DNA from: a virus
DNA: 41,866 nucleotides
Direction: 5' to 3' (one strand)
IMG/VR virus record: IMGVR_UViG_3300028388_002806
Location: 1 to 41,866 of that record
Part shown: one piece after another, positions 2-38,764 of the stretch
Numbering within the stretch: the stretch's first letter is position 1
Layout of the letters: every line of letters starts with the position of its first letter
Notes under the pieces: generated by a model
What the model was told of the DNA's origin: nothing
Seen by the model: the letters and a program-made list of their open reading frames with translations, nothing else
Database searches by the model: none
Position numbers and translations under genes: made by a program

Positions 2-439
2 GTTTATTATATCGCTGGTAACCATGATGAGTTTATACGTCCTTTTTTTCGATATGACTTCCAATTTGGTCGGTGTCAGATCTTGGATTCTTTCGACTAC
101 ATTGGCGTTTCCGGCAAGCGTTATTACGTTACTCACGGGGACTACTTTGACCTAACAATGAAGATCCCAACACCGGTGATCAACTTCTGTGCTCACATCT
201 GGGATTACATTCCACACAAAGAAGAAAACAATTCGTTTACAGATAGGATGTATAAAGTTCTTGGTACTGAACGAGTGATCGCAAAGTATCTAAAGGCTAA
301 GAAGTATGACAGTTGTATCACAGGTCATACTCACTCTCCTAAGATCAAAGACACGTATATGAACTGTGGCGACTGGGTAACAAACTGCTCAGCATTGGTA
401 GAACATGTTGATGGAACCTGGGAATTGATCTATAAATAA
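2..439 (+). CDS. Calcineurin-like metallophosphoesterase (LpxH/COG2908-like), 5' partial
   Basis: The frame is open from the window edge, so the N-terminus is missing. Visible metal-binding motifs are GNHDE (codons from about position 20), a central HGDYFD and a C-terminal GHTHSP, followed by a GDWV-NCSALVE stretch. This order is typical of calcineurin-like phosphoesterases and resembles the UDP-2,3-diacylglucosamine diphosphatase-like branch (COG2908). Such enzymes hydrolyse phosphomonoester, phosphodiester or pyrophosphate bonds using two metal ions. The substrate is not predictable here: nucleic acid ends, lipid A precursors or nucleotides are all possible. The stop codon overlaps a TATAAATA late-promoter-like octamer and the next gene begins four bases on. 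The fold call is firm; the substrate is open. Confidence 0.85.
   Translation, partial: VYYIAGNHDEFIRPFFRYDFQFGRCQILDSFDYIGVSGKRYYVTHGDYFDLTMKIPTPVINFCAHIWDYIPHKEENNSFTDRMYKVLGTERVIAKYLKAKKYDSCITGHTHSPKIKDTYMNCGDWVTNCSALVEHVDGTWELIYK
431..438 (+). promoter_or_regulatory. T4-type late promoter octamer TATAAATA
   Basis: This is an exact match to the T4 late promoter -10 octamer. It overlaps the stop codon of the phosphoesterase gene. Transcription would start about six bases downstream, almost on the ATG at 443, which makes the in-frame ATG at 458 the more comfortable start for a message made here. The octamer is seen directly; its use is inferred. Confidence 0.55.
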
Positions 440-442
440 AAC

Positions 443-1735
443 ATGGGAATTGAAAAAATGCAAGAAGCAGTATCTAAACTAGGGTATACGAAGTTTAAAC
501 AACAAACTCGTAACACTCTACTTGTTTATGTTCCAAAAAGTGAAAGAGATATTACATTGGATGAATTGGCTGAAAAAATGAATGGTGTCCGGGACAAACG
601 ACCTGAGACTATGAGAAAAATTTCTTCAGCTGGTGCAGTATTTTTCCCTGACGGTCCTTACAAGGATATGTTTCTTGGTGTAAAACCTGATGCATCTGCT
701 TCACTGACTACAGATGAGCAGGAAACATTGGCTGGCATTTTTATTGCTACAAAGCAAGCTAAGCCTGATACAAATTTTTCTTACACAGACTTAGAAAGCG
801 TTGGTGATACGAACACAAATTCGAGATTTAAAATATCTCAGCTATATGAGAAGGCTGGTAAAGGATGGATTAATAGTTCAATTGTAATTGCTGAAACTAT
901 TAGTCCTTTTTTAGAAGGAAAATATAAAGTTCAACAAAGATCTGGCAGCCCCTTTGTCACAAACATTAGCAATGCTGCTCAGAAACTTATCAGAGAATCT
1001 GGTCACACTATGGGTCTCGACAAGTGGAACCCTGCTGACATTTGGTTGGTGAAAACTAATCTGTTAACAACTAATTTTGGTCAGTTTAAAAATATAATGG
1101 AACTCAATCAATTTTTGTTAGAAAAGTTTAACAATAAAGAGATTATTGGTGTTTCACTTAAGCAGGTAGGCAAGACTGCCAAAGTACAAGTATTTAACGA
1201 TGGACCTCAAGAACAAGTTGAATTTGAAGGTTTTGATGTCGGAAAGACGGGTTTCGTAAAAGCATTAAATGGAACTCTTTACTGGGGTGGCGGATCAATG
1301 ATTATCCGTAACTTTGGTCGTCCTGAAAATGTCAGCGGTGAGATTAATGGTAAGTTTGCTCAAGGTGGTAAGGTTGGTCACGGTCCTTTGCTCAATATCA
1401 TGAAGCAAGTAGTTCCGGGATTTTCAACTACACCACACCAACAAATTTCTTCTATGTACAATAGCACTCCTGATAAACTTTACAGACATTTGTATTCTCA
1501 AATGAAATCACTTGACACCCGAGTTAGTCCATCGTATACTGTAGAGGAATTTAAAGCTGATGTAGAAGCTAAGGACAATACCTTGAATTACTTGATCTCG
1601 AAATATCAAGTATCTGATATTATGCAAGCAGTTAAAAAAATGAATAAAACACAAAAGAATAAAATGATCAGAGCTTTTATCGGATACGCATCTTCATCAA
1701 CAGAAATAAGTAGTATTTTTTACAAAGTATCATGA
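443..1735 (+). CDS. Conserved phage protein with PD-(D/E)XK-like core
   Basis: This 430-residue protein has no confident family name. About residues 195-205 read KWNPADIWLVK and about 45 residues later comes GVSLKQVGKTAK. An acidic PxD motif followed by a beta-strand ending in SxK is the spacing seen in PD-(D/E)XK nucleases, so a nuclease is possible but unproven. A glycine-rich GTLYWGGGSM stretch follows near residue 280, and the C-terminus is lysine-rich. An alternative start is the ATG at 458, which better suits the late promoter at 431-438. It shares a 4-base ATGA overlap with the ligase-like gene downstream, so the two are probably translated together. Confidence 0.7.
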   Translation: MGIEKMQEAVSKLGYTKFKQQTRNTLLVYVPKSERDITLDELAEKMNGVRDKRPETMRKISSAGAVFFPDGPYKDMFLGVKPDASASLTTDEQETLAGIFIATKQAKPDTNFSYTDLESVGDTNTNSRFKISQLYEKAGKGWINSSIVIAETISPFLEGKYKVQQRSGSPFVTNISNAAQKLIRESGHTMGLDKWNPADIWLVKTNLLTTNFGQFKNIMELNQFLLEKFNNKEIIGVSLKQVGKTAKVQVFNDGPQEQVEFEGFDVGKTGFVKALNGTLYWGGGSMIIRNFGRPENVSGEINGKFAQGGKVGHGPLLNIMKQVVPGFSTTPHQQISSMYNSTPDKLYRHLYSQMKSLDTRVSPSYTVEEFKADVEAKDNTLNYLISKYQVSDIMQAVKKMNKTQKNKMIRAFIGYASSSTEISSIFYKVS

Positions 1736-2253
1736 TCGAGCTTACAGAACAGAAAAACACACACATGGAACATATTGAAGACATGATCTTCAATGACGGA
1801 GTTGACGGAGCTCGTCTAGCTATCAACAGTCTTCGTAACTTAAGAGACATGCTTGCTGGCAAGTCTGATAGCAAAGTCAACGCAACTGTCAAATGGGATG
1901 GAGCTCCAGCGATCTTTGCTGGTATCGATCCAGCAGATGGTCAGTTCTTTGTAGCAAAGAAAGGTTTGTTTAATGTCAATCCGAAACTGTATAAAACTCA
2001 AAGTGATATTGATAAGGATCTATCTGGTGAGCTTGCTGCTAAATTTACGGTTGCGCTTAGGGAATTTGCTAAACTCGGTATCAAAAAAGGTGTATATCAA
2101 GGCGATCTTCTTTTTACCAGTGGTGATCTATCTGTTGTTACAATCGATGGTGAAAAGCATTATTCATTTCAGCCAAACACGATCGTCTACACCGTCCCCG
2201 TACGTTCAAGCCTTGGAGCGCAACTGGCAAAAGCTAAAATAGGAATTTCCTAA
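1732..2253 (+). CDS. N-terminal part of split DUF6267-like, ligase-like protein
   Basis: The product of 173 residues opens with a MEHIEDMIFNDGVDGAR region typical, as I recall it, of the phage DUF6267 family. It then has VKWDGAPAIFAG, which matches the KxDG adenylation motif I of ATP-dependent ligases, and GVYQGDLLF, which could be the motif III strand. It ends abruptly just after AKAKIGIS, where relatives would be expected to continue. The remainder of the family signature is in the next frame, starting at 2255. I read these as two halves of one gene broken by a frameshift with loss of some sequence. Either a natural split or an assembly error could explain this. Confidence 0.72.
   Translation: MIELTEQKNTHMEHIEDMIFNDGVDGARLAINSLRNLRDMLAGKSDSKVNATVKWDGAPAIFAGIDPADGQFFVAKKGLFNVNPKLYKTQSDIDKDLSGELAAKFTVALREFAKLGIKKGVYQGDLLFTSGDLSVVTIDGEKHYSFQPNTIVYTVPVRSSLGAQLAKAKIGIS
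2240..2252. repeat. Short inverted repeat at the gene break
   Basis: TAGGAA and TTCCTA flank one central T. The repeat spans the stop codon of the 1732-2253 frame and sits exactly at the junction between the two halves of the ligase-like gene. Such a short palindrome can promote slippage or deletion, but it may be coincidence. The TAGGAA arm could also serve as the ribosome binding site for the TTG start at 2255. Confidence 0.45.
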
Positions 2254-2254
2254 G

Positions 2255-2878
2255 TTGAAAAAAGCCTCCACTATCTTTATGGACGATGCAACTTACCGTG
2301 ACGTATCTGGCAATGCTAAGTTCACAGAAGCAGAAACTGATCAAGTCACTGAAATACTTTCTCAAGCTGGTAAGATCTTTAGAAGTATCAGAGGTGATTC
2401 TTTGAGAACTATTCGAGACAACAAAGATCTAAAAGAAAAGATCAAGACGTACAACAATACATACGTACGCCGTGGGGTTCCATTTCCTAATGTTCAACAG
2501 CATGTATCTGGTTTATATCGATACATTGATGAATGGTATCAAAAGGAAATTGATAAAAAGAAAACTCCAGCTGCAAAAGCTAAATGGCAAAAGCAAAGAG
2601 ATGATGTAATAAAAACTGTGTTTGCTAATTCAAGAGATCTCAAGTTTATCTTTATGCTTATGAATAAGTTGATTGAAGCCAAACAAATGATCATCAACAA
2701 AATGAACAAAGCAAATTCTATTGGTACGTTCTTACGTTATTCAAATGGCCTCAAAGCAACAACACCAGAAGGTTTCGTAGCAATTGATCGAGATGGTAAC
2801 TCAGTAAAGCTAGTTGACCGTCTTGAGTTCTCTCGTGCTAACTTTTCTCCAGATGTTCTCAAAGGCTGGCAGAAGTAA
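2255..2878 (+). CDS. C-terminal part of split DUF6267-like, ligase-like protein
   Basis: The product of 207 residues begins at a TTG and quickly enters DDATYRDVSG, a stretch I associate with the middle of DUF6267-like proteins. The central part is helical and lysine-rich. The end carries TPEGFVAIDRDG followed by SVKLVDRLEFSRANF; these resemble ligase motif IV (EGxV) and motif V (KxK-like). With motif I on the upstream frame, a complete ligase-like nucleotidyltransferase core can be assembled across both pieces. Whether this half is translated alone is unclear, because the TTG has only a modest upstream purine run. The gene ends just before a TATAAATA late promoter. Confidence 0.7.
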   Translation: MKKASTIFMDDATYRDVSGNAKFTEAETDQVTEILSQAGKIFRSIRGDSLRTIRDNKDLKEKIKTYNNTYVRRGVPFPNVQQHVSGLYRYIDEWYQKEIDKKKTPAAKAKWQKQRDDVIKTVFANSRDLKFIFMLMNKLIEAKQMIINKMNKANSIGTFLRYSNGLKATTPEGFVAIDRDGNSVKLVDRLEFSRANFSPDVLKGWQK

Positions 2879-2930: not shown

Positions 2931-5900
2931 ATGAAAGCTGTTTTCACATTCGGAAGAATGAACCCGCCTACGATTGGCCATCAAAAACTTGTCAAGAAGT
3001 TAGTATCTGTTGCAAAAGCAAATAGAGCTAAGCCATTTCTTTACCTGTCTCAAACACAGAACTCTAAGAAAGATCCTTTATCTTACAGTGATAAGATTCG
3101 GTTTGCTAAAAAATCTTTTCCAGAAGTAGAAGCGGTCAACACCTCTGCTCGTACAATCATAGAAGTCCTTAAAGAATTAGAAAAGAAAGGATTCACAGAT
3201 CTTACTTTAGTAGTTGGATCTGACCGTGTCAGAGAGTTTCAAACTCTTATCAACAAGTACAACGGCAAAGAGTATAACTTTGATTCTATTAATGTAGTTT
3301 CAGCTGGTGCTAGAGATCCTGATGCTGAAGGTGTGGAAGGCATGTCTGCATCTAAGTTAAGACAGCTTGCAGTATCAGGTTTGGAAGATCAGTTTAAGAC
3401 CGGTCTTCCTGAAAAACTATCAGATACAGATAAGAAAAAGATATACAATCTAGTCAGAAAAGGATTGAACGTGTCAGAAGAATTAGAAGAAAAAGTATTG
3501 ACTCTTCAACAGAGAATGAAGAAAGCAAGAACTATGAAACGTCTTGCTCCAAGATTTGCTCGTCTTCGTAAAATTAAAGCAAAAAGAATGGCGGATCCCA
3601 AAAGATTATTGCAAAGGGCCCGCAAACAAGCGATTAACATAATGAGAAAGAGAATGGCTGGTGAACGAGGTGGGCAATATGCTAACCTTTCTCCTGCTGC
3701 TAAAATTTCGATTGATCAACTTATAGATAAAAAGAGACCTGTCATTGACAAATTGGCTAAAAGATTGCTTCCTAAAGTTAGAAAGTCTGAAGTCGAGAGA
3801 CTTAAAAAAGCCAGAACTCCAAAGAATGAGGCTACTGAAGTTCCACAAGATCAAGATGTAAAACAAAGAGCAGGTTCACAGCCAGCAAAGTATTACAAAG
3901 GTCTTGCCAAGAGCACCAAGAAAGCTCGTGACACACACTTTGACAAGTATGAAAAGAAGCCAGACGACGATCCTTCAGCATACAAGCCAGCTCCTGGTGA
4001 TAAACGTGCTAAGACTAAGCCTTCTGTTCATACAAAGAAATACAAGCAGATGTTTGGTGAGGGGATGCCTGATCAAACAGATGACGTTCAAGATATCGTA
4101 CCAGGAATGATGACAGTGTCTAGAATCTCCAGCTCTTACAAAAAGAAGTTAAATGCAGAGTTTGAAAAGCTCGATGAAATTTCATATGCTTCTAGAACAA
4201 AAGAAAGACACGCTGCAGAAAGAGAAAGATTAAGAGATACTCATCGCAGAGAAAAAGAACAAATGAAGCAACGTCATGCTCGAGCTGTTGATAGAGCTCA
4301 AGTACGTGATGTTCGTTCTGAAGAATATTTCGAAGAAGGTGTTAATGATCCATCTATCTTCAAAGCAGTATTTCTTGCTGGTGGTCCAGGATCAGGTAAA
4401 TCGTTTATTATTGGACAGACTGCATTGATACCATTGGGTTTCAAATTGATCAATTCTGATCCAGCTTTTGAAAGAGCATTGGAAAAAGCTGGCTTGGATA
4501 AAGGAAAGCCAGAGGATATTTACTCTCCACAAGGTCAGGCTGCAAGAGGTCGTGCTAAAGCTCTTACTAGCAAGCAAATGAAGTTGGCTATTGATGGACG
4601 ATTGGGCTTAGTTATTGATGGCACAGGTAAAGATGCTTCAAAGATAAAAACTCAAGCCAATAAGTTAAAGAAACTTGGTTATGAAGTTGCGATGATATTT
4701 GTAAACACTGATCTGGAGACAGCACAGGCTCGTAACATGAAGCGCGATAGAACTTTGCCAGCAGATGAAGTTGAATCAATGTGGAACGAAGTGCAATCAA
4801 ACCTTGGTACATTCCAGAGCATGTTTGGTAAAAATATGTTCATAATTGACAACTCCGAAGATTCTGATTATGCTGGACAGTCGAGAAAAGTTTATAATAA
4901 GATCAAGACGTGGGCTGCTACTGAACCACGGATGCCACAAGCCAAGGCTTGGATCAATGCTCGTAAGAGTGTAAATGAAGAGTTTGAATCTTTAATGATT
5001 AACGAATCTTTTGAAGAGCAATTAAGACAACAAAAAGGTCGTTCTTCCATCGTACCTAGAGACAATTATACGCTAGAAGAAAAGTCTATTGCTGGTCTTA
5101 AGAAAAAGTCTGAAAAGTCTGGTGTTCCATACTCTATCTTGAAGAAAGTATATGATAGAGGGATGGCTGCTTGGAAAACTGGACACAGACCTGGTACTAC
5201 ACCACAACAATGGGCTTTTGCTAGAGTTAATAGTTTCTTAACAGGTGGCAAGACAAGAACAACAGCTGATAAGGACTTGTGGGCAAAAGCAAGTGCTGCT
5301 AAGAAATCAAAGAAAGAATCAATGAGAGTTGGACCTTACATGTCCAAGGTCTCAGAAGAAGTTCAGTCTCTTGATGAATCTTTCCAGATAGCTTTCGAAA
5401 CTGGTGCTGGGATGGGTGAAACCCATTTTGCTAAAGATCTTGGTATCCAGTTTGAAAGAGGATATCAAGACCACCCATCAATTACAGAAGACTGGTTTTC
5501 TAAGTTGATGAATAAGTATCTTCTTAAGCCAAGAACGTATCAGACTGCTAAGCAGATTCTTAGACAAGTACTTGATCGTAAAAAGAAAGAAGGTCAGTTA
5601 AAGCATTCAATTGAATACTATGCTCAACGGATTGCACAGAATTTTAAAGGTGTGGATGCTAGAGAGCTGGCAAAAATGGTTACAGAAGAACATGGTGCAG
5701 GAGAAGAGGGTACTGATGAGCTCGTCAAGAAGTACGTCAAGGACACGCCGCACATGGAGATCCAGCGTGAGGAGGAAGACTGGGAAGAGTTCGAAGCTAT
5801 TTGCGAAGACTGCATGGTCGATCTTCCCTTGGTCGAATCAGAGTACGAAGGAAAAAAAGTAACTCTCAATGATCCTATCCGTAGTTCGAAAGGACCAAAG

Positions 5901-6110
5901 AAGTTTCATGTATTTGTTAAGAACGATAAAGGCAATGTAGTCAAGGTAAACTTCGGTGATCCTAACCTGTCGATCAAGAGAGACGATCCTGATAGAAGAA
6001 GAAGTTTCAGAGCAAGACATAACTGTGACAATCCAGGTCCTAAATGGAAGCCTCGTTATTGGTCTTGTAGAATGTGGACAAAAGGTAAAAAAGTAAGCGA
6101 TTTAGATTAA
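2931..6110 (+). CDS. Multidomain protein: nucleotidyltransferase, P-loop kinase, DUF5824-like, Cys-containing tail
   Basis: A 1059-residue mosaic. Residues 1-180 form an HxGH nucleotidyltransferase domain (FGRMNPPTIGHQ near the start, SASKLRQ near 145), the NMN/cytidylyltransferase-type fold. About 190-460 is highly basic and looks disordered. A Walker A GGPGSGKS at 484-491 begins a zeta-toxin/AAA_33-type kinase with INSDPAFE just after it. About 722-785 contains VYDRGMAAWKTGHRPGTTPQ, a DUF5824-like phage domain. The last 90 residues (FGDPN, RRSFRARHNCDNPG, YWSCRMW) are a C-terminal module that I recall from other large phage proteins. The late promoter at 2881 and structural neighbours suggest a protein packaged in or needed for the virion, possibly injected. 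Bases around 5700-5850 are visibly richer in G+C than their surroundings. Confidence 0.82.
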   Translation: MKAVFTFGRMNPPTIGHQKLVKKLVSVAKANRAKPFLYLSQTQNSKKDPLSYSDKIRFAKKSFPEVEAVNTSARTIIEVLKELEKKGFTDLTLVVGSDRVREFQTLINKYNGKEYNFDSINVVSAGARDPDAEGVEGMSASKLRQLAVSGLEDQFKTGLPEKLSDTDKKKIYNLVRKGLNVSEELEEKVLTLQQRMKKARTMKRLAPRFARLRKIKAKRMADPKRLLQRARKQAINIMRKRMAGERGGQYANLSPAAKISIDQLIDKKRPVIDKLAKRLLPKVRKSEVERLKKARTPKNEATEVPQDQDVKQRAGSQPAKYYKGLAKSTKKARDTHFDKYEKKPDDDPSAYKPAPGDKRAKTKPSVHTKKYKQMFGEGMPDQTDDVQDIVPGMMTVSRISSSYKKKLNAEFEKLDEISYASRTKERHAAERERLRDTHRREKEQMKQRHARAVDRAQVRDVRSEEYFEEGVNDPSIFKAVFLAGGPGSGKSFIIGQTALIPLGFKLINSDPAFERALEKAGLDKGKPEDIYSPQGQAARGRAKALTSKQMKLAIDGRLGLVIDGTGKDASKIKTQANKLKKLGYEVAMIFVNTDLETAQARNMKRDRTLPADEVESMWNEVQSNLGTFQSMFGKNMFIIDNSEDSDYAGQSRKVYNKIKTWAATEPRMPQAKAWINARKSVNEEFESLMINESFEEQLRQQKGRSSIVPRDNYTLEEKSIAGLKKKSEKSGVPYSILKKVYDRGMAAWKTGHRPGTTPQQWAFARVNSFLTGGKTRTTADKDLWAKASAAKKSKKESMRVGPYMSKVSEEVQSLDESFQIAFETGAGMGETHFAKDLGIQFERGYQDHPSITEDWFSKLMNKYLLKPRTYQTAKQILRQVLDRKKKEGQLKHSIEYYAQRIAQNFKGVDARELAKMVTEEHGAGEEGTDELVKKYVKDTPHMEIQREEEDWEEFEAICEDCMVDLPLVESEYEGKKVTLNDPIRSSKGPKKFHVFVKNDKGNVVKVNFGDPNLSIKRDDPDRRRSFRARHNCDNPGPKWKPRYWSCRMWTKGKKVSDLD

Positions 6111-15529: not shown

Positions 15530-16009
15530 ATGGCATTTGAAGAAGAACAACATGAAGTTCGAACTGAAATCGAACTTTTGAAAAGAGATGTCAGTGGCCT
15601 TACTCAGGTCATTGACAAGCTCGACGTCACTATTGATAAATTAGCTGAAGTGTCGAATGGTCTTAACAGAATGATCTCTGTTCATGAGGAACAAATCACT
15701 CGCCAAGACCAGGCGGACAAGGAACTTTTTCAGCTAATGGAAACAAGAAGATTAGAAACAACAGAGCAGTACGAGACGTTGCAGAAAAAAATGTCTGAAC
15801 AAAAATCATATCTCGAAAGTGAAGTTGAAAAAGTGTACGAAGATTGTATTGGTGAGATCAAAGGTCTTAGAAAAGATTCAGAAGAACAGCATCAACAGAT
15901 GCTAACCCGATTCAATCAAATAGAAAAGTGGAAGTGGTTCTTAGTTGGTATCGCTTCAGCAGTTGGATTCATCATTGCACAGCTTCCATTCATTAGTGAT
16001 ATTTTATAG
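15530..16009 (+). CDS. Tail-anchored coiled-coil protein (XhlA-like)
   Basis: A 159-residue protein. Almost all of it is a heptad-repeat coiled coil (residues 5-130, e.g. LTQVIDKLDVTIDKLAEV), and the last 25 residues form one membrane helix (FLVGIASAVGFIIAQLPF). This is the shape of XhlA/hemolysin-like lysis accessory proteins that sit on the inner membrane. It shares the promoter and region of the EF-hand membrane protein. Membrane-tethered lysis factor is the best guess. Confidence 0.62.
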   Translation: MAFEEEQHEVRTEIELLKRDVSGLTQVIDKLDVTIDKLAEVSNGLNRMISVHEEQITRQDQADKELFQLMETRRLETTEQYETLQKKMSEQKSYLESEVEKVYEDCIGEIKGLRKDSEEQHQQMLTRFNQIEKWKWFLVGIASAVGFIIAQLPFISDIL

Positions 16010-16038
16010 TTGACCTTTCTTTGTCTGCACTGTACAAT
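16010..16038 (+). promoter_or_regulatory. Sigma70-type early promoter upstream of primase
   Basis: TTGACC, 17 bases, then TACAAT. It occupies the 63-base gap between the lysis region and the primase gene, with an AAAGGAT ribosome site near 16056. It marks the switch from late/lysis genes to replication genes. Confidence 0.75.
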
Positions 16039-16072
16039 CCACGGTGTAGCCGATAAAGGATAAAACTATATT

Positions 16073-17068
16073 ATGAGTGAAGTGACTGATAGAATGTATC
16101 TCGGTCTTATTCAATCAAAGTTAGACCGTTTTGCCGTCAAACAAAACCAACCTTATCTAGCAAACTTCAGATGCCCATTCTGTGGCGATTCAAAGAAGAA
16201 CAAATGGAAAGCTCGAGGATACTTATTCTCTAAGCCTGGTGGTTTATTCTACAAATGTCATAACTGTAATCACAGTACTAACTTTGCTAAGCTTCTAGAA
16301 CATTTGGATCCTACTGTATACAGAGAGTATGCATTAGAGAAGTTCAAGGAAGGTAAGACCCGGTATGCAAACACGATTCCTAACTTTGAAAATTTTACTC
16401 CAAAGTTTGGTAGAAACCTTCTTGACAAGATAACTGTTCCTGCAAAAGGCAGTGTCGCTGAGTTATATCTAGAACAACGGAAGGTTCCAAAGTATTGGTG
16501 GGATCGTTTGCTTTATGTCGATGATATCCAAAAGTTGGAAGAGCTTTCTCCTAAGTATGAAGGTCGTATCATTGGGAACGAAGGACGATTAGTAATTCCG
16601 TTTTACAATAAAGAAAAACAATTGGTAGGTGTGACTTGCCGTGCGTTAGGCGACGAACGGTTACGATATATAACTGTCCGGATCAATGAAGACGACCCAA
16701 TGATCTTTAACTTAGATCAGGTCCATGATGGTAAAGTATATGTGACGGAAGGTCCCATTGATGCGATGTTTCTACCGAATAGTGTAGCGGTAGGAAACAG
16801 TGACTTGAACTCGATAAACACCGCTTTACCAAAGAAAAATGTTGTGCTAGTGTTTGATAATCAGCCGAGGAATATCCAGCTGATCGATCAAATGCTTCAA
16901 GCAGCTGATCAGGGTTTTAAGGTCGTTGTCTGGCCAGAAAGATTGCCATACAAAGATATCAATGAAATGGTGATAAATGGTATTGACAATGTTCAAAAAA
17001 TCATAGATAATAATACGTTTAATGGTTTAGAGTTGATCTTTAAGATCAGTGATTGGAGAAAAGTTTGA
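16073..17068 (+). CDS. DNA primase, T4 gp61-like
   Basis: A 331-residue primase that makes RNA primers for lagging-strand synthesis with the replicative helicase. The zinc ribbon is at the N-terminus: Cys34 and Cys37 in CPFC, Cys62 and Cys65 in CHNC. The TOPRIM core has VTEGPIDAMF near residue 224 (catalytic Glu) and VLVFDNQPRN near 262 (metal-binding Asp). Length and zinc/TOPRIM order agree with T4 gp61. It follows a sigma70-type promoter and overlaps the downstream glycosyltransferase by four bases (TTGA). Confidence 0.9.
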   Translation: MSEVTDRMYLGLIQSKLDRFAVKQNQPYLANFRCPFCGDSKKNKWKARGYLFSKPGGLFYKCHNCNHSTNFAKLLEHLDPTVYREYALEKFKEGKTRYANTIPNFENFTPKFGRNLLDKITVPAKGSVAELYLEQRKVPKYWWDRLLYVDDIQKLEELSPKYEGRIIGNEGRLVIPFYNKEKQLVGVTCRALGDERLRYITVRINEDDPMIFNLDQVHDGKVYVTEGPIDAMFLPNSVAVGNSDLNSINTALPKKNVVLVFDNQPRNIQLIDQMLQAADQGFKVVVWPERLPYKDINEMVINGIDNVQKIIDNNTFNGLELIFKISDWRKV

Positions 17069-17799
17069 ACATAGCTACTATTACATCTATGAACCGCAAG
17101 TACTACAATCGTGTAGGACAACGGATGATTGAAAGCTATCAGGAAAATTTTGACATCCCTTTGATTGTGTACTGGGAAGGTGATGATCCTCCGGCCGGAG
17201 TTGAGTGTATTGATCTTCTTAAAGAAACTAATGTTAGTCAGTTCAAAGATCGTCATAGAAATAATCCACGAATAGATGATTTTCATCTTGGTGCAATTAA
17301 GTTTGCTCCAAAGAGTTATTCTGTGATTCATCGATTGAAAAATTCAAACACTGATTATACAATATGGCTCGATGCAGACGTTTTTGTACATTCTAAGATT
17401 GATAAACACTTCTACGAACAAGTTATAGATTCATCTAAAATGGCTACTGTACTTGGCCGAGAAGACAATTATTTGGAAAGTGGTTTTGTTGTATATAATC
17501 ATCACCATCAACAAATTAAAGAATTTACAGATAAGTATGAAGCGTGTTACGAAAATGATGAAATCTTTAAAATTCCACAATGGCATGATGCGTTCGTCGT
17601 CGATTGGATTATGAGATCAATGAAAGCAGAACTCCACAATCTTACACCCCACGGAAGACGTTACGATCACGTATTCGTTGACAGTATACTTGGTGACTAC
17701 ATGGATCATATGAAAGGTCCTAGAAAAGATAGAGGGAGTTCAAAGTTGAGTGACATGAAAACCAGAAAATCTAATAACAAATATTGGCAAGGGAAGTGA
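17065..17799 (+). CDS. GT-A-type glycosyltransferase
   Basis: The TTG at 17065 is preferred over the TTG at 17053 because GGAG at 17054-17057 then gives a normal spacing and the start overlaps the primase stop. The 244-residue product begins with ATITSMNRKYYNRVGQRM, and TIWLDADVFVH near residue 100 is a DxD-type nucleotide-sugar site. FDSGFVVYN-like LESGFVVYN and WHDAFVVDWI later fit a GT-A fold. Its place between primase and nrd genes is away from the main glycan island, which suggests independent insertion. Acceptor unknown. Confidence 0.72.
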   Translation: MNIATITSMNRKYYNRVGQRMIESYQENFDIPLIVYWEGDDPPAGVECIDLLKETNVSQFKDRHRNNPRIDDFHLGAIKFAPKSYSVIHRLKNSNTDYTIWLDADVFVHSKIDKHFYEQVIDSSKMATVLGREDNYLESGFVVYNHHHQQIKEFTDKYEACYENDEIFKIPQWHDAFVVDWIMRSMKAELHNLTPHGRRYDHVFVDSILGDYMDHMKGPRKDRGSSKLSDMKTRKSNNKYWQGK

Positions 17800-17800
17800 T

Positions 17801-17986
17801 ATGAAAATCAAAGAATTTGTGAATGGTAAAACAAAAAAGAAAGCAATCATCAAACAGATTAACAATGGTTACTTTGTAGACTTGTTTAAGGAACAAGAAT
17901 TGGTTCGGACAGTTGATGTTTCAACTCATAGTTATTACTATGCTGAAGATGTAGCAGAGAATTGGTTGAGTGGTATTTTACGATGA
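17801..17986 (+). CDS. Small hypothetical protein
   Basis: A 61-residue protein starting MKIKEFVNGKTKKKAII. It has a basic N-terminal half and an acidic/aromatic C-terminal half (HSYYYAEDVAENWLSG). No motif is recognisable. It sits one base after the glycosyltransferase stop and overlaps the following small membrane gene by four bases (ATGA), which supports it as a real gene. Confidence 0.55.
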   Translation: MKIKEFVNGKTKKKAIIKQINNGYFVDLFKEQELVRTVDVSTHSYYYAEDVAENWLSGILR

Positions 17987-18078
17987 TCGATCCAGTAGAT
18001 TTTTTCATTGCTATTTCTATAGGTCTCGTAATTGGTAGCGCTGTCAGCTACGCTGCTTGGTATTACATTACAAAATAA
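17983..18078 (+). CDS. 31-residue membrane peptide
   Basis: The ATG overlaps the upstream stop by four bases (ATGA), and the stop lies 15 bases before the nrdA start. The product is a single hydrophobic helix (DFFIAISIGLVIGSAVSYAA) with a short polar tail. Small, one-helix peptides like this are common in T4-like phages, usually unassigned. Coding is inferred from the overlap and from filling an otherwise empty 107-base gap. Confidence 0.5.
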   Translation: MIDPVDFFIAISIGLVIGSAVSYAAWYYITK

Positions 18079-18093
18079 AAACGGAGAACACAA

Positions 18094-20376
18094 TTGTCAA
18101 CTATCCACGTAGTCAAGCGGGATGGTTCTAAGGAACCTCTTGATCTTGATAAGTTTCATAAAGTTGTCATGTGGGCATGTGAAGGTATAAAGGGCGTCTC
18201 TCCTTCTGAAATCGAAATCAGATCACATGTCCAGTTTTATGACAACATTAGATCAGATGATATCCAAGAGACGCTGATCAAAGCAGCTGCTGATCTTATC
18301 AGTGAAGAGACTCCTAATTATCAGTTTGTAGCAGGAAGGTTGATTAACTATCATCTTCGAAAGAAGGTGTTCAATGGATTTGATCCTATCGATCTGTACT
18401 CTCATGTTGTTGGTGTTTGCGCTAAAGGATTCTATACGACAGAATTGTTGAACTGGTATACGCCTGAAGAATTTCATCAGATGAATTTATTCATCGATCA
18501 TTCACGTGATGATTATTTTACGTATGCTGCTATGGAACAGTTTCGTGGAAAGTATCTTGTACAAAACAGAGCAACAAAAGAAATCTTTGAGACTCCTCAA
18601 ATAGCATACATGTTGATTGCTGCTACTCTATTCCATGCATATCCTAAAGAGAAAAGGATGCACTGGATTAAAGATGCATACAATGCATTCAGTAACTTCG
18701 ATATCTCTCTTCCTACACCTATCATGTCAGGGGTGAGAACACCTCAGAAACAGTTCTCATCATGTGTTCTCATTGAGACTGATGACTCACTTGATTCAAT
18801 CAATGCAACCGCTTCTTCGATTGTAAACTACGTGTCAAAGAAGGCTGGGATTGGAATTGGTGCTGGAAGGATCCGTGCTATCGGGTCTCCGATCAGAAGT
18901 GGTGATGCAACACACACTGGTGTGATCCCATTCTACAAACATTTCCAGAGTGCTGTTAAGAGTTGCAGCCAGGGTGGTGTCAGAGGTGGTGCAGCAACAT
19001 TGTACTATCCAATCTGGCACCTAGAAGTAGAAGATCTTCTTGTCCTTAAGAATAATAAAGGAACAGAAGACAATCGTGTCCGCCATCTTGATTATGGTGT
19101 TCAGTTTAACAAGGTGATGTATGAACGACTTATTAGCGGAGGCGATATCACGCTATTCTCCCCGCACGATGTACCGAGACTTTACGACTTGTTCTTTACA
19201 AGTACCGAAGATTTCAAAGTCGAATACGAGGCAGCAGAACGACGAACTGATATACGAAAGAAGTCGGTGCCGGCAATCGATCTGTTTTCAGCCTTCATGC
19301 AAGAAAGGAAGGATACTGGACGTATATACTTGATGAATGTCGATCATGCAAATGATCACAGTTCGTTTATTGTAGACAAAGCTCCTATCAAACAGTCTAA
19401 CCTCTGTTGTGAGATCGATCTTCCAACGAAGCCTTTGAAACACATCTTTGATGAAGAAGGTGAGATCTCTCTGTGCACACTTGCAGCAATTAACTGGGGT
19501 AACATTAAGCGTCCAGAAGACTTCCGAAAGCCATGTGAGATTGCAGTCCGTGCTTTGGATGCTCTGTTAGACTATCAAGAGTACCCTTTGATTGCGGCAA
19601 AAAGGTCCACAGAGTTAAGACGTCCATTGGGCATTGGCATCATTAATTTTGCGTATTGGCTAGCTAAGATTAATTCTACATATACGGAACCAGACTTACA
19701 GACGATCGATGCATTCAGTGAAGCATGGTCTTACTATCTGATCAAAGCGAGTGCCGACCTTGCAAAAGAAAAAGGACCATGCCTTGCTAACGACGAAACA
19801 AAATACAGTCTTGGAATTCTTCCCATCGATACATACAAGGAAGATGTAAAAGACCTTGTTAAACACAAGGAAAGAATGCCTTGGAACGAGTTGAGAGATC
19901 AGCTTAAAGAGACAGGAATTCGTAATAGTACTTTAATGGCTTTGATGCCAGCTGAGACATCAGCACAGATCAGTAATGCTACAAACGGAGTAGAGCCACC
20001 TAGAAGCTATGTTTCAGTTAAACAGTCCAAGCACGGTGTCCTCAAACAAGTCGTCCCAGAAATCAGACGACTTAAGAATAAGTACGAACTACTATGGGAT
20101 CAGAAATCTCCTGAAGGGTATCTGAAGATCATGGCGATCCTTCAGAAGTATATCGATCAGGGTATTTCTGTCAATACTTCATACAATCCAAGGTTCTATG
20201 AAGATGAAAAGATTCCTATGAGTGAGATGTTGAAGCATTTGATTATGTTCTACAAATATGGGGGTAAGCAGCTGTACTACTTCAATACGAATGATGGTGC
20301 AACTGACGAATACGAAGAAGAAAAACCAACAACAACTCAGGTAGACGATGAAGCCTGTGACAGTTGTGTACTTTAG
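18094..20376 (+). CDS. nrdA: Ribonucleoside-diphosphate reductase class Ia, alpha subunit
   Basis: A 760-residue large subunit, about the length of E. coli NrdA. It reduces NDPs to dNDPs with NrdB. The start is TTG, with ACGGAG about eight bases upstream. An ATP-cone occupies about residues 1-90. Catalytic residues are present: Cys224 in SSCVLIE, Cys438 and Glu440 in NLCCEI, Cys461 in SLCTLA, the radical-transfer tyrosine pair in QLYYFNTNDG, and the C-terminal cysteine pair in ACDSCVL, which is recharged by glutaredoxin (gene at 29536). Presence of an ATP-cone suggests allosteric control. It is followed by nrdB at eight bases. Confidence 0.96.
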   Translation: MSTIHVVKRDGSKEPLDLDKFHKVVMWACEGIKGVSPSEIEIRSHVQFYDNIRSDDIQETLIKAAADLISEETPNYQFVAGRLINYHLRKKVFNGFDPIDLYSHVVGVCAKGFYTTELLNWYTPEEFHQMNLFIDHSRDDYFTYAAMEQFRGKYLVQNRATKEIFETPQIAYMLIAATLFHAYPKEKRMHWIKDAYNAFSNFDISLPTPIMSGVRTPQKQFSSCVLIETDDSLDSINATASSIVNYVSKKAGIGIGAGRIRAIGSPIRSGDATHTGVIPFYKHFQSAVKSCSQGGVRGGAATLYYPIWHLEVEDLLVLKNNKGTEDNRVRHLDYGVQFNKVMYERLISGGDITLFSPHDVPRLYDLFFTSTEDFKVEYEAAERRTDIRKKSVPAIDLFSAFMQERKDTGRIYLMNVDHANDHSSFIVDKAPIKQSNLCCEIDLPTKPLKHIFDEEGEISLCTLAAINWGNIKRPEDFRKPCEIAVRALDALLDYQEYPLIAAKRSTELRRPLGIGIINFAYWLAKINSTYTEPDLQTIDAFSEAWSYYLIKASADLAKEKGPCLANDETKYSLGILPIDTYKEDVKDLVKHKERMPWNELRDQLKETGIRNSTLMALMPAETSAQISNATNGVEPPRSYVSVKQSKHGVLKQVVPEIRRLKNKYELLWDQKSPEGYLKIMAILQKYIDQGISVNTSYNPRFYEDEKIPMSEMLKHLIMFYKYGGKQLYYFNTNDGATDEYEEEKPTTTQVDDEACDSCVL

Positions 20377-20384
20377 GAGAAGAC

Positions 20385-21518
20385 ATGTATTCTGTTTTCG
20401 ATCAGACTAATAAGAAAGCTCAATATGATAACAAAATGTTTCTTGACGAGTCAGGTGGCGTTACAGTTGCTCGATATGACAAAGTCAAGTACCATCAGTT
20501 CGACAAGCTGACAGATAAGCAGCTTGGGTTCTTTTGGCGTCCTGAGGAAGTAGATATCCTCCGTGATGCAAAGGACTTTAAGGATCTGACTGAACATGAA
20601 CAACACATCTTTACGTCGAATCTCAAGCGTCAGATTCTGTTAGACAGTGTGCAAGGAAGAAGTCCAAACATGGCTTTCCTTCCTGTTGTTTCTATTCCAG
20701 AGCTTGAAACATGGGTAGAGACTTGGTCGTTCTCAGAAACTATTCATTCACGTTCATACACTCATATCATCCGTAACATCTACAGCGATCCTTCTGTTGT
20801 ATTTGACTCTATGTTAGAGATCGACGAGATTGTCAACTGTGCAGAAGATATCTCAAAGTACTACGATGATCTGATCGAGTATGCATCGTGGTATAACTTG
20901 TTAGGTGAAGGTACTCATACTGTCAATGGTAAAGAAGTTAACATTGATAAGTACGAATTGAAGAAGAAGATCTGGATGGCTATCAACTCAGTCAATGCTC
21001 TTGAAGGGATTCGTTTCTATGTCAGCTTTGCTTGCTCTTGGGCTTTTGCAGAACTTAAAAAGATGGAAGGGAATGCTAAGATCATTAAGTTCGTTGCAAG
21101 AGACGAAAACCTCCATCTTGGTTCTACACAACAACTAATTAAACTTCTTCCAAAGGATGATCCTGACTTTGCTAAGATCAGAGACGAGATGGAAGACGAT
21201 GTACTTACAATGTTTGTCAAAGCTGTAGAGCAAGAAAAGGCTTGGGCAGACTACTTGTTTAAAGATGGATCGATGATTGGCTTGAACGCTCAACTCCTCA
21301 AGGATTATGTTGAGTGGATTGCTAACAAGAGAATGATTGCAGCTGGTATCAAGTCACCATACAAAGTACCACAAGCAAATCCTTTACCATGGACACAAAA
21401 GTGGATTTCTGGTGGTGAGGTTCAAGTAGCCCCACAAGAAACAGAAATCAGTTCGTATATTGTAGGCGGTGTCAAGAAAGACATCAACGATAAAACTTTT
21501 GCAGGACTATCACTCTAA
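20385..21518 (+). CDS. nrdB: Ribonucleoside-diphosphate reductase class Ia, beta subunit
   Basis: A 377-residue diiron-tyrosyl radical subunit. The ATG at 20385 is preferred to an upstream TTG because AGGAGA lies directly ahead of it. The metal ligands and radical are visible: Asp in FWRPEEVD, Glu118 and His121 in SETIHSRSY with the radical Tyr125, and the distal Glu and His in FVARDENLHLG. Spacing matches E. coli NrdB with a three-residue offset. The C-terminus carries the short tail that docks on NrdA. The stop shares one base with the next start. Confidence 0.95.
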   Translation: MYSVFDQTNKKAQYDNKMFLDESGGVTVARYDKVKYHQFDKLTDKQLGFFWRPEEVDILRDAKDFKDLTEHEQHIFTSNLKRQILLDSVQGRSPNMAFLPVVSIPELETWVETWSFSETIHSRSYTHIIRNIYSDPSVVFDSMLEIDEIVNCAEDISKYYDDLIEYASWYNLLGEGTHTVNGKEVNIDKYELKKKIWMAINSVNALEGIRFYVSFACSWAFAELKKMEGNAKIIKFVARDENLHLGSTQQLIKLLPKDDPDFAKIRDEMEDDVLTMFVKAVEQEKAWADYLFKDGSMIGLNAQLLKDYVEWIANKRMIAAGIKSPYKVPQANPLPWTQKWISGGEVQVAPQETEISSYIVGGVKKDINDKTFAGLSL

Positions 21519-21706
21519 TGGACGAAGAAATCAAAACTCATACACTTAAAGAAGAGCGGTGCAACAATTGTGGTGCTGAATATACTTTATCTTTTGATAA
21601 TGATTTTGACCTGACGCCCAACTATTGCCCTTTTTGCGGAGAAGAGCACGACGACTACATATTAGAAGAAGATGAATTGGAAGAGCTCGACTTTGATGAG
21701 GACTAA
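21518..21706 (+). CDS. Small zinc-ribbon protein
   Basis: A 62-residue protein. Two CxxC knuckles (CNNC near residue 15 and CPFC near 37) define a zinc ribbon. The C-terminus is a run of Asp and Glu, giving a nucleic-acid-mimic or protein-docking look. It overlaps nrdB by one base and the GIY-YIG gene by one base. A transcription- or protein-interaction factor is possible; function is unknown. Confidence 0.68.
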   Translation: MDEEIKTHTLKEERCNNCGAEYTLSFDNDFDLTPNYCPFCGEEHDDYILEEDELEELDFDED

Positions 21707-22107
21707 TGTGGTACTATAATAATGAACCTTATGAAGACACCCCAGAAGAATATCAGGGGTTTGTCTATCAGATAACAGACTTGGTGACAGGAAAGAAATA
21801 TATTGGAAAAAAGTTTTTTTGGAAACCAAAAACTCTTCCAGTCACAAAAACAAGAAAAAGACGTGTCAAGACCCGCACTGAGTCGGACTGGAGATCATAT
21901 TATGGTTCCAGCAAAGAAGTTAAAGAACTTGTTGAATCTCAAGGACAAGACAAGTTCAAAAGAGAAATCTTAAGACTGTGTAAGACTAAAGGTGAATGTT
22001 CTTATTATGAAGCAAAATATCAATTTGATTTTGAAGTATTGTTTAGAGACGATTACTACAACGAGTTAATTAGTTGTAAGATTCATTCTCGCCATGTAAA
22101 AAAATGA
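21706..22107 (+). CDS. GIY-YIG-type endonuclease, Seg-like
   Basis: A 133-residue protein with GFVYQITDLVTGKKYIGKK near residue 18, matching the GIY and YIG halves of the GIY-YIG core. An ESDWRSYYGSSKE segment and YYEAKYQF near the C-terminus supply the Arg/Glu positions of the active site. Related small proteins occur in many T4-like phages and are usually listed as Seg-type homing or free-standing nucleases. It lies beside nrdB, a frequent location for homing nucleases in T4-like phages. The stop overlaps the kinase gene start by four bases. Confidence 0.75.
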   Translation: MWYYNNEPYEDTPEEYQGFVYQITDLVTGKKYIGKKFFWKPKTLPVTKTRKRRVKTRTESDWRSYYGSSKEVKELVESQGQDKFKREILRLCKTKGECSYYEAKYQFDFEVLFRDDYYNELISCKIHSRHVKK

Positions 22108-26015: not shown

Positions 26016-26097
26016 TTGGTTTCTTGTAGCAATCAATCCATGGTATAGAGTGGAATACAATCCAGTCACTAGACAGACGCGACACGTTAAACGATGA
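25996..26097 (+). CDS. 33-residue small protein bridging the gap
   Basis: The frame starts at ATG 25996, overlaps the end of the GT8-like gene by 20 bases and ends in an ATGA overlap with the cytidylyltransferase start at 26094. The peptide is aromatic and basic (NWFLVAINPWYRVEYNP, then RQTRHVKR). It fills the only sizeable gap in the island. Coding is supported by the overlap at its end; function is unknown. Confidence 0.45.
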   Translation: MTSSDNNWFLVAINPWYRVEYNPVTRQTRHVKR

Positions 26098-26849
26098 AAA
26101 TAGTTTTAGTTACTGGGGGGTTTGATCCACTACATTCTGGCCACATTGAATATTTCAAAGCAGCTAGGGAATTAGGTGATTATCTAGTAGTTGGTGTGAA
26201 TAGTGACGATTGGCTTACCCGCAAAAAAGGTAGACCATTTATGCCTATGGAAGAACGAATGTCTATAATTCAACACTTAGGAATGGTGGATCATGTTATA
26301 GATTTTGATGATCAAGATAATACTGCAGTGAATGCTATTTGTAAAATAAAAAATATGTGGAAAAATATAGACATTATTTTTGCAAACGGTGGTGATAGAA
26401 CAGCAGAAAATATTCCTGAAATGGAATCATTTAAAGATGTTGAGTTTGTTTTTGGAGTGGGCGGTAACGACAAGAAAAATTCCAGTAGCTGGATTTTAAA
26501 ACAATGGAGCCAACCTACTACAGAACGTGATTGGGGCACATATACGGTATTGGATAAAAACGGCGGTTGGCAAGTTAAAGAATTAGCTTTTCATATGGGA
26601 AAAAGTTTAAGCGATCAACGTCATTTTTATAGATCTGAGCATTGGCACGTTGTTCAGGGAACTATTAAAATGGATTTAGAATTTCCAAATGGAGACAGAG
26701 AAAGCAGAACCTATCATAAAGGTGAAAACATTGACATCCCAATTGAAACTTGGCACAAAGCAACTAATGTTGGTACCAATTCAGCAAAGGTGATTGAAGT
26801 CTGGTTAGGTGACAAGTTATCAGAAGAAGATATAGAAAGAAGAGATTGA
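26094..26849 (+). CDS. Cytidylyltransferase-cupin fusion
   Basis: A 251-residue two-domain protein. Residues 1-135 are an RfaE/TagD-type nucleotidyltransferase, with GGFDPLHSGHIEYF carrying the HxGH motif and a later GGNDKKNSSSWIL closing it. Residues 140-250 are a cupin resembling type II mannose-6-phosphate isomerase: WGTYTVLDKNGGWQVKEL, then HFYRSEHWHVVQG and IPIETWHKATN hold likely metal ligands. The first domain should join a phosphorylated sugar or polyol to a nucleotide; the second may isomerise or bind the sugar. The fusion is unusual and sits among transferases. Confidence 0.8.
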   Translation: MKIVLVTGGFDPLHSGHIEYFKAARELGDYLVVGVNSDDWLTRKKGRPFMPMEERMSIIQHLGMVDHVIDFDDQDNTAVNAICKIKNMWKNIDIIFANGGDRTAENIPEMESFKDVEFVFGVGGNDKKNSSSWILKQWSQPTTERDWGTYTVLDKNGGWQVKELAFHMGKSLSDQRHFYRSEHWHVVQGTIKMDLEFPNGDRESRTYHKGENIDIPIETWHKATNVGTNSAKVIEVWLGDKLSEEDIERRD

Positions 26850-28455: not shown

Positions 28456-28660
28456 ATCTAACAGAAGATCCGTAGTCAAGACATTCACGTGGCGGATGCT
28501 TGCTACGTTTACAACTTTTATTATTAGTTGGGCAATTACCGAAAACATTTACATGGGTCTAGGTATTGCATCAATAGAATTTTGGGCTAAGCTAATTTTA
28601 TACTATTTGCACGAGAGAGTTTGGAATAAAATTAAATGGGAAAAGAATGAGTCCAATTAA
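28448..28660 (+). CDS. DUF2061 membrane protein
   Basis: A 70-residue protein with two hydrophobic helices. The motifs RRSVVKTFTWRML, TFIISWAITENI and LILYYLHERVWNKI define DUF2061. The start is a TTG that overlaps the methyltransferase stop. As I know it, DUF2061 genes often sit beside sulfate-assimilation genes such as cysC in bacteria. Here the next gene, overlapping by 14 bases, is an APS-kinase-like protein, matching that association. The exact role is not established. Confidence 0.82.
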   Translation: MFESNRRSVVKTFTWRMLATFTTFIISWAITENIYMGLGIASIEFWAKLILYYLHERVWNKIKWEKNESN

Positions 28661-29438
28661 AATTTTGGTAATGGGATTACCAGGCGCAGGTAAGACTTAC
28701 TTTGCAGAGAGGTTAAAGAAACATCTCGACGCAGATTGGTTCAATGCAGATAAAGTTCGCGAAAAGTATGATGATTGGGATTTCACCGATCTTGGAAGAC
28801 TCCGTCAAGCTACACGAATGAGAAAGATGTGTGAGCTCTCTACTAAACCTTATGCAATAGCAGACTTCGTGTGTCCCACGTATGTTCTTAGGGCTGAGTT
28901 TCAACCAGATTGGATTATTTGGTTAGATACAATTGACGAAGGTCGTTTCGAAGATACAAACAAAAAGTTCAATCCTCCTTCAGATTATGACTTCCGTCTT
29001 AGTTATGAAATGACTGAAGAAAACGCAGAGAAGTATGCTGAGAAGATCGCTAACAAGATTCGTACTAATGACCGTGGAGTGAAGTTTGATCCTCGTAAAG
29101 AGACTGTACAGATGCTTGGTCGTTGGCAACCATGGCATGATGGTCACCAGGCTTTGTTTGAGAAGGCAATTGCTAAGACTGGCCAGGTTTGTATTATGAT
29201 TAGAGACTGTCAGGGCTGGAATGATAGCAATCCTTTTGACCCAGAGTTTGTAAAGGCACGGATTAGAAGAGCGCTTGACATGGACTATAAAGGAATGTAT
29301 ACTATCATTGTAGTACCGAATATCACAAACATTACATATGGACGTGATGTAGGATACAAGATAGAACAAGAATATCTTGGAGAAGAAATAGAATCGATTT
29401 CCGCCACTAAGATTAGACAAGAAATGGGAATCGAATAA
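28647..29438 (+). CDS. APS-kinase-like / nucleotidyltransferase fusion
   Basis: A 263-residue fusion. Residues 1-140 are an adenylylsulfate-kinase-like P-loop domain: GLPGAGKTYFAERL (Walker A), WFNADKVREKYDDW and RFEDTNKKFNPP. Residues 145-263 are an HxGH nucleotidyltransferase: GRWQPWHDGHQALF, a middle GYKIEQEYLGEE, and SISATKIRQEMG. The order, kinase then nucleotidyltransferase, is that of animal PAPS synthetases, although the second domain looks more like a NadM/cytidylyltransferase than true ATP sulfurylase. Production of an activated sulfate or other nucleotide donor for glycan modification is possible. Confidence 0.8.
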   Translation: MSPIKILVMGLPGAGKTYFAERLKKHLDADWFNADKVREKYDDWDFTDLGRLRQATRMRKMCELSTKPYAIADFVCPTYVLRAEFQPDWIIWLDTIDEGRFEDTNKKFNPPSDYDFRLSYEMTEENAEKYAEKIANKIRTNDRGVKFDPRKETVQMLGRWQPWHDGHQALFEKAIAKTGQVCIMIRDCQGWNDSNPFDPEFVKARIRRALDMDYKGMYTIIVVPNITNITYGRDVGYKIEQEYLGEEIESISATKIRQEMGIE

Positions 29439-29444
29439 CAGAAT

Positions 29445-29521
29445 CTCGCCTTAGCTCAGCTGGATAGAGCAACAGCCTTCTAAGCTGTGGGTCGCAGGTT
29501 CGAATCCTGCAGGCGAGGCCA
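29445..29521 (+). tRNA. tRNA-Arg (UCU anticodon)
   Basis: A 77-base tRNA. The acceptor pairs CTCGCCT with AGGCGAG, discriminator G, and CCA is encoded. The anticodon stem ACAGC/GCTGT closes a CTTCTAA loop, giving anticodon TCT, which reads AGA. The T arm GCAGG-TTCGAAT-CCTGC is perfect. AGA is a common arginine codon in this phage's genes, so the tRNA likely supplements the host. It sits between the APS-kinase fusion and glutaredoxin genes. Confidence 0.96.
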
Positions 29522-38689: not shown

Positions 38690-38764
38690 GCTACGGTGGC
38701 TGATAGGTTAGGCAGCTGACTGCAAATCAGTTTTAGGCAGGTTCGAATCCTGTCCGTAGCTCCA
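38690..38764 (+). tRNA. tRNA-Cys (GCA anticodon)
   Basis: A 75-base tRNA. The acceptor GCTACGG pairs with CCGTAGC, discriminator T, and CCA is encoded. The anticodon stem GCTGA/TCAGT (one G-T pair) closes CTGCAAA, giving GCA. The T arm GCAGG-TTCGAAT-CCTGT has one G-T pair. It lies seven bases after the acidic protein gene, so it may be co-transcribed from the 38435 promoter. Confidence 0.94.

Follow-up and report, generated by a model that had tools for sequence, protein, structure and literature searches.

The window analysed here, 41,866 bases long, is a whole IMG/VR virus record (marine-type, metagenome-derived and single) and carries a DUF6267 gene that lies in two pieces, ORF A and ORF B, in frames one base apart. 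We regard it as likely that this is a single gene which has lost about 68 nt and thereby its frame, and that the intact product belongs to the nucleotidyltransferases of the ligase superfamily. The coordinates of the relevant features are listed in Table 1.

Table 1. Features of the window, with the formerly split S-PM2 locus in the last line. Invariance was counted over 104 divergent DUF6267 sequences, and residue numbers follow the family numbering.
Feature	Positions	Strand	Remarks
Truncated calcineurin-like metallophosphoesterase	2-439		At the window edge; PF00149, E 7e-8
Upstream ORF	443-1735	+	phrog_1462, function not assigned; near DUF6267 in 47 of 204 loci
ORF A, N-terminal DUF6267 half	1732-2253	+	173 aa; stops after AKIGIS
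Conserved N-terminal segment, NTHMEHIED	1756-1782	+	H15, H18 and E20 invariant
Motif I-like, KWDGAP	1891-1908	+	K58, D60 and G61 invariant; K58 is the predicted nucleophile
Motif Ia-like, FFVAKKG	1945-1965	+	K81 invariant
Motif III-like, YQGDLLF	2095-2115	+	Q127, G128 and D129 invariant; Asp versus the usual Glu
Motif IIIa-like, FQPNTIVY	2167-2190	+	F150 and Y157 invariant
Inverted repeat TAGGAA-T-TTCCTA (TAGGAATTTCCTA)	2240-2252		Across the junction
Deletion junction	2247-2252	+	About 68 nt of relatives absent; frame shifted +1
ORF B, C-terminal DUF6267 half	2255-2878	+	207 aa; TTG start; +1 frame
Motif IV-like, EGFVAI	2768-2785	+	E373 and G374 invariant
Motif V-like, VKLVDR	2804-2821	+	K386 and R390 invariant; second lysine of KxK absent
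Downstream ORF	2931-6110	+	HIGH-motif NMNAT/cytidylyltransferase-like, P-loop kinase (AAA_33/zeta-like), DUF5824, DUF5754
tRNA-Arg(TCT)	29445-29521		
tRNA-Cys(GCA)	38690-38764		
Split DUF6267 locus of S-PM2 in L230 (NC_006820.1 99614-108231)	3412-5191		Single-base errors

ORF A and ORF B are two halves of one DUF6267 gene

Both halves were aligned with the DUF6267 family, a check that an earlier note on this DNA had proposed. The Pfam profile (PF19782, 376 positions) matched ORF A over profile positions 1-157 (E 5.6e-55, 187.6 bits) and ORF B over positions 184-373 (E 3.2e-37, 129.2 bits), both scores being far above the curated cut-off of 27. ORF A and ORF B also matched phrog_455 (T4-like cyanophage cluster T4-GC 71), and by sequence both are members of the family. 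Since they match the same families over adjacent profile regions, they represent a single gene that has been divided, in agreement with the note. It had also read the frames correctly, with KWDGAP and QGDLLF in the first, which ends after AKIGIS, and EGFVAI and VKLVDR in the second. The ATG that starts ORF A shares bases with the stop codon of the upstream ORF; the terminal stop of ORF A is a product of the frame change.

The step from profile position 157 to 184 indicates that about 26 profile positions are absent at the join. Among the relatives retrieved from IMG/VR (240 loci), 236 contain the break site and the remaining four end at a contig edge. An uninterrupted ORF crossed the site in all 236 and the gap was seen in none; the window, with its two frames, departs from the single frame of about 400 codons expected of a DUF6267 member. 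The bordering aligned residues are separated by 72-75 nt in the closest relatives and by 4-7 nt in the window, where the figure varies with the placement of the edge. About 68 nt, equivalent to 22 codons and two bases, are thus absent. The earlier expectation of some 20 missing residues and a deletion of non-triplet length was thus close to what was found (22-23 residues, compared with intact relatives). The sequence of the relatives in the missing stretch reads like VWHTTYTG......M.ASFGK.

Outside this stretch the gene is well preserved. The 104 diverse relatives have 36 invariant columns, 32 of which are kept in the window; the four that are lost, H179, T180, Y182 and G184, all fall within the missing stretch. 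Because a gene in long decay would have lost more than four invariant residues, the lesion is probably either very recent or absent from the virus. It is the sole frame jump in the approximately 15 kb over which relatives allowed a comparison with the window.

A second split had been suspected at 15530-17068, but this stretch consists of two distinct genes, and the primase there is intact. The region 16073-21518 encodes this T4-type primase (331 aa) followed by the large and small subunits of a class Ia ribonucleotide reductase, and these genes support a T4-like myovirus.

Origin of the break

The inverted repeat TAGGAA-T-TTCCTA sits at the break, where the earlier note had located it. We judge it to be a chance feature that explains nothing about the break. 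The window contains 83 inverted repeats with 6-bp arms and loops of 0-4, which together take up 2.4% of its bases. RNA from the surroundings of the repeat at the break folds no better than shuffled sequences (z 0.07). Both arms of this repeat consist of ordinary codons, IGI from the left flank and PK from the right, which suggests that it arose when these flanks were joined. A special meaning of the palindrome was rejected on these grounds.

Programmed +1 frameshifting, or the production of two cooperating proteins by restart at the TTG at 2255, is highly improbable. The sequence UCC-UAA-G could in principle slip by +1, and AGGA is found 9 nt upstream of the TTG; however, the arrangement occurs in 0 of the 236 relatives, the site has no special RNA structure, and either product would lack the strand with the invariant H179, T180, Y182 and G184. 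Frameshifting was rejected on the first two of these observations.

Between an artefact and a real mutation the balance is about even. An error in library preparation, sequencing or assembly, the gene of the virus itself being intact, has roughly an even chance. The record is single and metagenome-derived, and exact-pattern scans for a second record of the same virus that would confirm the junction found none; besides, the gene is intact in 236/236 relatives and the remainder of the window gene shows no decay. There is also a precedent in S-PM2, since its original record had the same gene falsely split at the same place and was later corrected by resequencing. In the first genome (NC_006820), DUF6267 was annotated as two genes, broken directly after AKIG, whereas in the later record LN828717 (L232) it is whole and fused to a cytidylyltransferase domain; PCR and Sanger sequencing of old lysates attributed the differences between the records to errors of the first sequence (PMC4503421). 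On the other hand, assembling a 68-nt loss without flanking repeats would normally need reads that span the junction, and the comparable parts of the window have no other frame break. A real and recent loss-of-function mutation, in the virus or in a sub-population of it, has slightly less than an even chance and draws on the same sequence evidence, with both halves open and otherwise conserved as would fit a fresh lesion; it is weakened by the lack of an independent copy and by the strong conservation elsewhere, which suggests that the gene is needed. The products encoded in the window, whether they stem from a recent null mutation or from a wrong record, are two fragments that are expected to be inactive.

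Ligase-type motifs in DUF6267

The earlier note had seen a full ligase-type motif set in the joined frames. Its order holds: motifs I, Ia, III, IIIa, IV and V follow one another with invariant residues, and the KxDG of motif I, characteristic of the covalent nucleotidyltransferase superfamily, is kept in the window. Two positions depart from the set, namely the Asp in motif III, where a Glu is usual, and motif V, which has a single lysine instead of KxK. In 104/104 sequences motif V reads K-[ILFV]-[VI], the position of the second lysine being occupied by Val or Ile; Rnl1, Rnl2 and T4 DNA ligase have both lysines, and KIK, KCK and KFK are the forms seen in the T4 enzymes.

Motif order and the spacing between motifs IV and V are as in T4 Rnl1 (gp63) and RLIG1. 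The step from E373 to K386 comprises 13 residues, equal to that from E227 to K240 in T4 Rnl1, as read from the T4 genome, and to that from E240 to K253 in YspRLIG1 (PMC11494293). The text of this region is EGYVAVMKDGSHFKIK in Rnl1 and EGFVAIDRDGNSVKLV in the window. KxDG, the EG of motif IV and the lysine of motif V do not vary among the 104 divergent sequences, a pattern which favours the view that lysine adenylation has been retained.

Predicted fold of intact relatives

Two intact relatives sharing 58% identity, L001 and L107, were modelled with AlphaFold2. The L001 model was built from 26 sequences (pLDDT 75.7) and the L107 model from 104 sequences (pLDDT 86.5, pTM 0.80). The 1000 best PDB chains given by Foldseek were realigned structurally and the best 50 rows were scored, a Z of 8 being considered safe. 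Polynucleotide ligases occupied 49 of the 50 best rows with either model, and the first 22 rows obtained with L107 were RNA ligases. Modelling against ligases, which the note had advised, thus pointed to a nucleotidyltransferase fold, although this reading calls for caution since the highest Z, 7.7, is below the safe value. Plain Foldseek searches of both models against the PDB gave no E below 0.001.

The top match of L107 was the Naegleria RNA ligase (Z 7.7, 3.9 Å over 183 residues), followed by editing ligase 1 (Z 7.4), Trl1 (Z 7.2), T4 Rnl1 (Z 6.9) and T4 Rnl2 (Z 6.8). At the end of the top match residue 400 of L107 was aligned to residue 339 of the Naegleria enzyme, which places the motif V lysines of the two proteins, 387 and 326 (K326A in the entry titles), at equal distances from that end. 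In the L107 model, motifs IIIa and IV are also separated by an insertion of about 130 residues (226-354) that forms a helical bundle.

The guess that DUF6267 is a divergent ligase has therefore gained support at the level of fold (49/50 rows twice) and motifs (invariant in 104 sequences). That the family is ligase-like by predicted fold and key residues is well supported.

Relation of DUF6267 to known ligases

Searches at the sequence level gave no such link. An HMM search of the PDB with DUF6267 did not find ligases, nor did Pfam find a ligase link for 26 DUF6267 members. In hhalign comparisons with profiles of Rnl1 and Rnl2 built here, the E values (0.5 and 0.049) were at noise level, a reversed decoy giving 0.066, and the motif registers were not aligned.

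The best structural matches, i.e., the RNA ligase of Naegleria gruberi, T4 Rnl2 and the trypanosome RNA editing ligase 1, extend over about 180-190 residues with Z of 7.7-6.7. Nevertheless, the spacing between motifs IV and V is 21 in Rnl2 and 13 in DUF6267, and the accessory domains of these three enzymes and of DUF6267 differ. T4 Rnl1, whose fold is matched with Z 6.9, has no detectable sequence-profile similarity to DUF6267, which differs from it in the Asp of motif III, the one lysine of motif V, the inserted helical bundle and the lack of a C-terminal domain; such a domain is present in both Rnl1 and Rnl2. DNA ligases and capping enzymes have an OB domain after motif V, but the DUF6267 protein ends about 20 residues past this motif, and the OB fold of ATP- and NAD+-dependent DNA ligases is missing. 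The adenylation domain of the NAD+-dependent DNA ligase LigA appeared in the Foldseek lists (1b04 and 3jsn) without being significant. The link of DUF6267 to an NMNAT-like gene bears on this comparison, yet a protein of about 400 residues has no room for the OB, zinc, HhH and BRCT domains after motif V. Given Z values below 8, the lack of a sequence-profile link, the departures in motifs III and V and the domain differences, we call DUF6267 ligase-like and place it outside Rnl1, Rnl2 and the DNA ligase families. The models and comparisons suggest a new divergent branch.

The intact protein would be a covalent nucleotidyltransferase that adenylates itself and belongs to the RNA/DNA ligase superfamily. 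AMP would be attached to the lysine of KWDG, with metal and phosphate bound by residues of motifs IV and V; transfer of this AMP to a 5'-phosphate end, most probably an RNA end, would then permit sealing. The helical bundle would be an accessory domain.

It is possible, at rather less than even chances, that a ligase-like fold serves another chemistry here, such as protein or small-molecule nucleotidylation, or non-catalytic nucleotide binding. Function does not follow from a shared fold, the departures in motifs III and V would agree with a different reaction, and the constant partner is NMNAT-like and not a kinase or phosphatase. Against this stand the KxDG, EG and motif V lysine that have remained invariant in the 104 sequences.

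Gene neighbourhood

The gene immediately downstream of DUF6267 encodes an NMNAT-like nucleotidyltransferase, and the two proteins probably act together. The window has the same NMNAT/cytidylyltransferase-like neighbour as cyanophage DUF6267. Among the 170 loci that extend far enough to include it, 157 have a HIGH-motif gene of this kind 3' of DUF6267 and on the same strand, the median gap being 66 nt. In comparison with the window, whose gene is broken, the DUF6267 of some phages is fused to the NMNAT-like domain, as in S-PM2 and L144. Positions 5986-10122 of L144 form one ORF of 1379 aa with DUF6267, the HIGH-motif nucleotidyltransferase and later domains. The product of the downstream ORF of the window, with 1059 aa, is an unusual multi-domain phage protein. 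A PDB profile search with the NMNAT-like domain gave noise and a weak match to phosphopantetheine adenylyltransferase.

The P-loop kinase domain of the same ORF showed weak matches to adenylate kinase and polynucleotide kinase. Such a kinase is found beside DUF6267 in 11/77 loci and is not a constant partner, and a metallophosphoesterase is near it in 2/119. With these counts a kinase-phosphatase-ligase cassette for RNA repair was not established. Phage HIGH-family adenylyltransferases act in NAD+ salvage and phage RNA ligases repair cleaved tRNA (PMC9503650, PMC7824862, PMC3400036), and the DUF6267 and NMNAT-like pair may serve RNA repair, NAD+ chemistry or both.

Elsewhere in the window, 26094-26849 and 28647-29438 encode a further HIGH-type nucleotidyltransferase (heptose adenylyltransferase/NMN adenylyltransferase-like) and kinase-cytidylyltransferase genes, so that one 42-kb fragment holds multiple nucleotide-transfer genes. 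A small ORF at 21706-22107 matched phrog_447, labelled NAD synthetase, as well as homing endonuclease families (E 1e-40 and 2e-19), and the NAD synthetase label is doubtful.

Distribution and significance of the family

At least 461 deposited phage records, most of them from cyanophages, contain DUF6267, as do hundreds of contigs of uncultivated viruses; a search by name in an open-access library found no paper on it. The split itself is a lesion of low interest in a single record, and serves as a warning for a gene that has been falsely split before. The better discovery is the family: with DUF6267, marine T4-like phages would have a large branch of ligase-type nucleotidyltransferases that still lacks a name. 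It is unlikely, although it can be conceived, that DUF6267 is a new RNA ligase-type branch that works with its constant NMNAT-like partner and maybe uses or exchanges NAD+ instead of ATP for lysine adenylation; if this were true, RNA end repair in these phages would be tied to the supply of NAD+. Filing DUF6267 among ligase-type nucleotidyltransferases would give a testable function to a gene common to most marine T4-like phages, together with its NMNAT-like partner.
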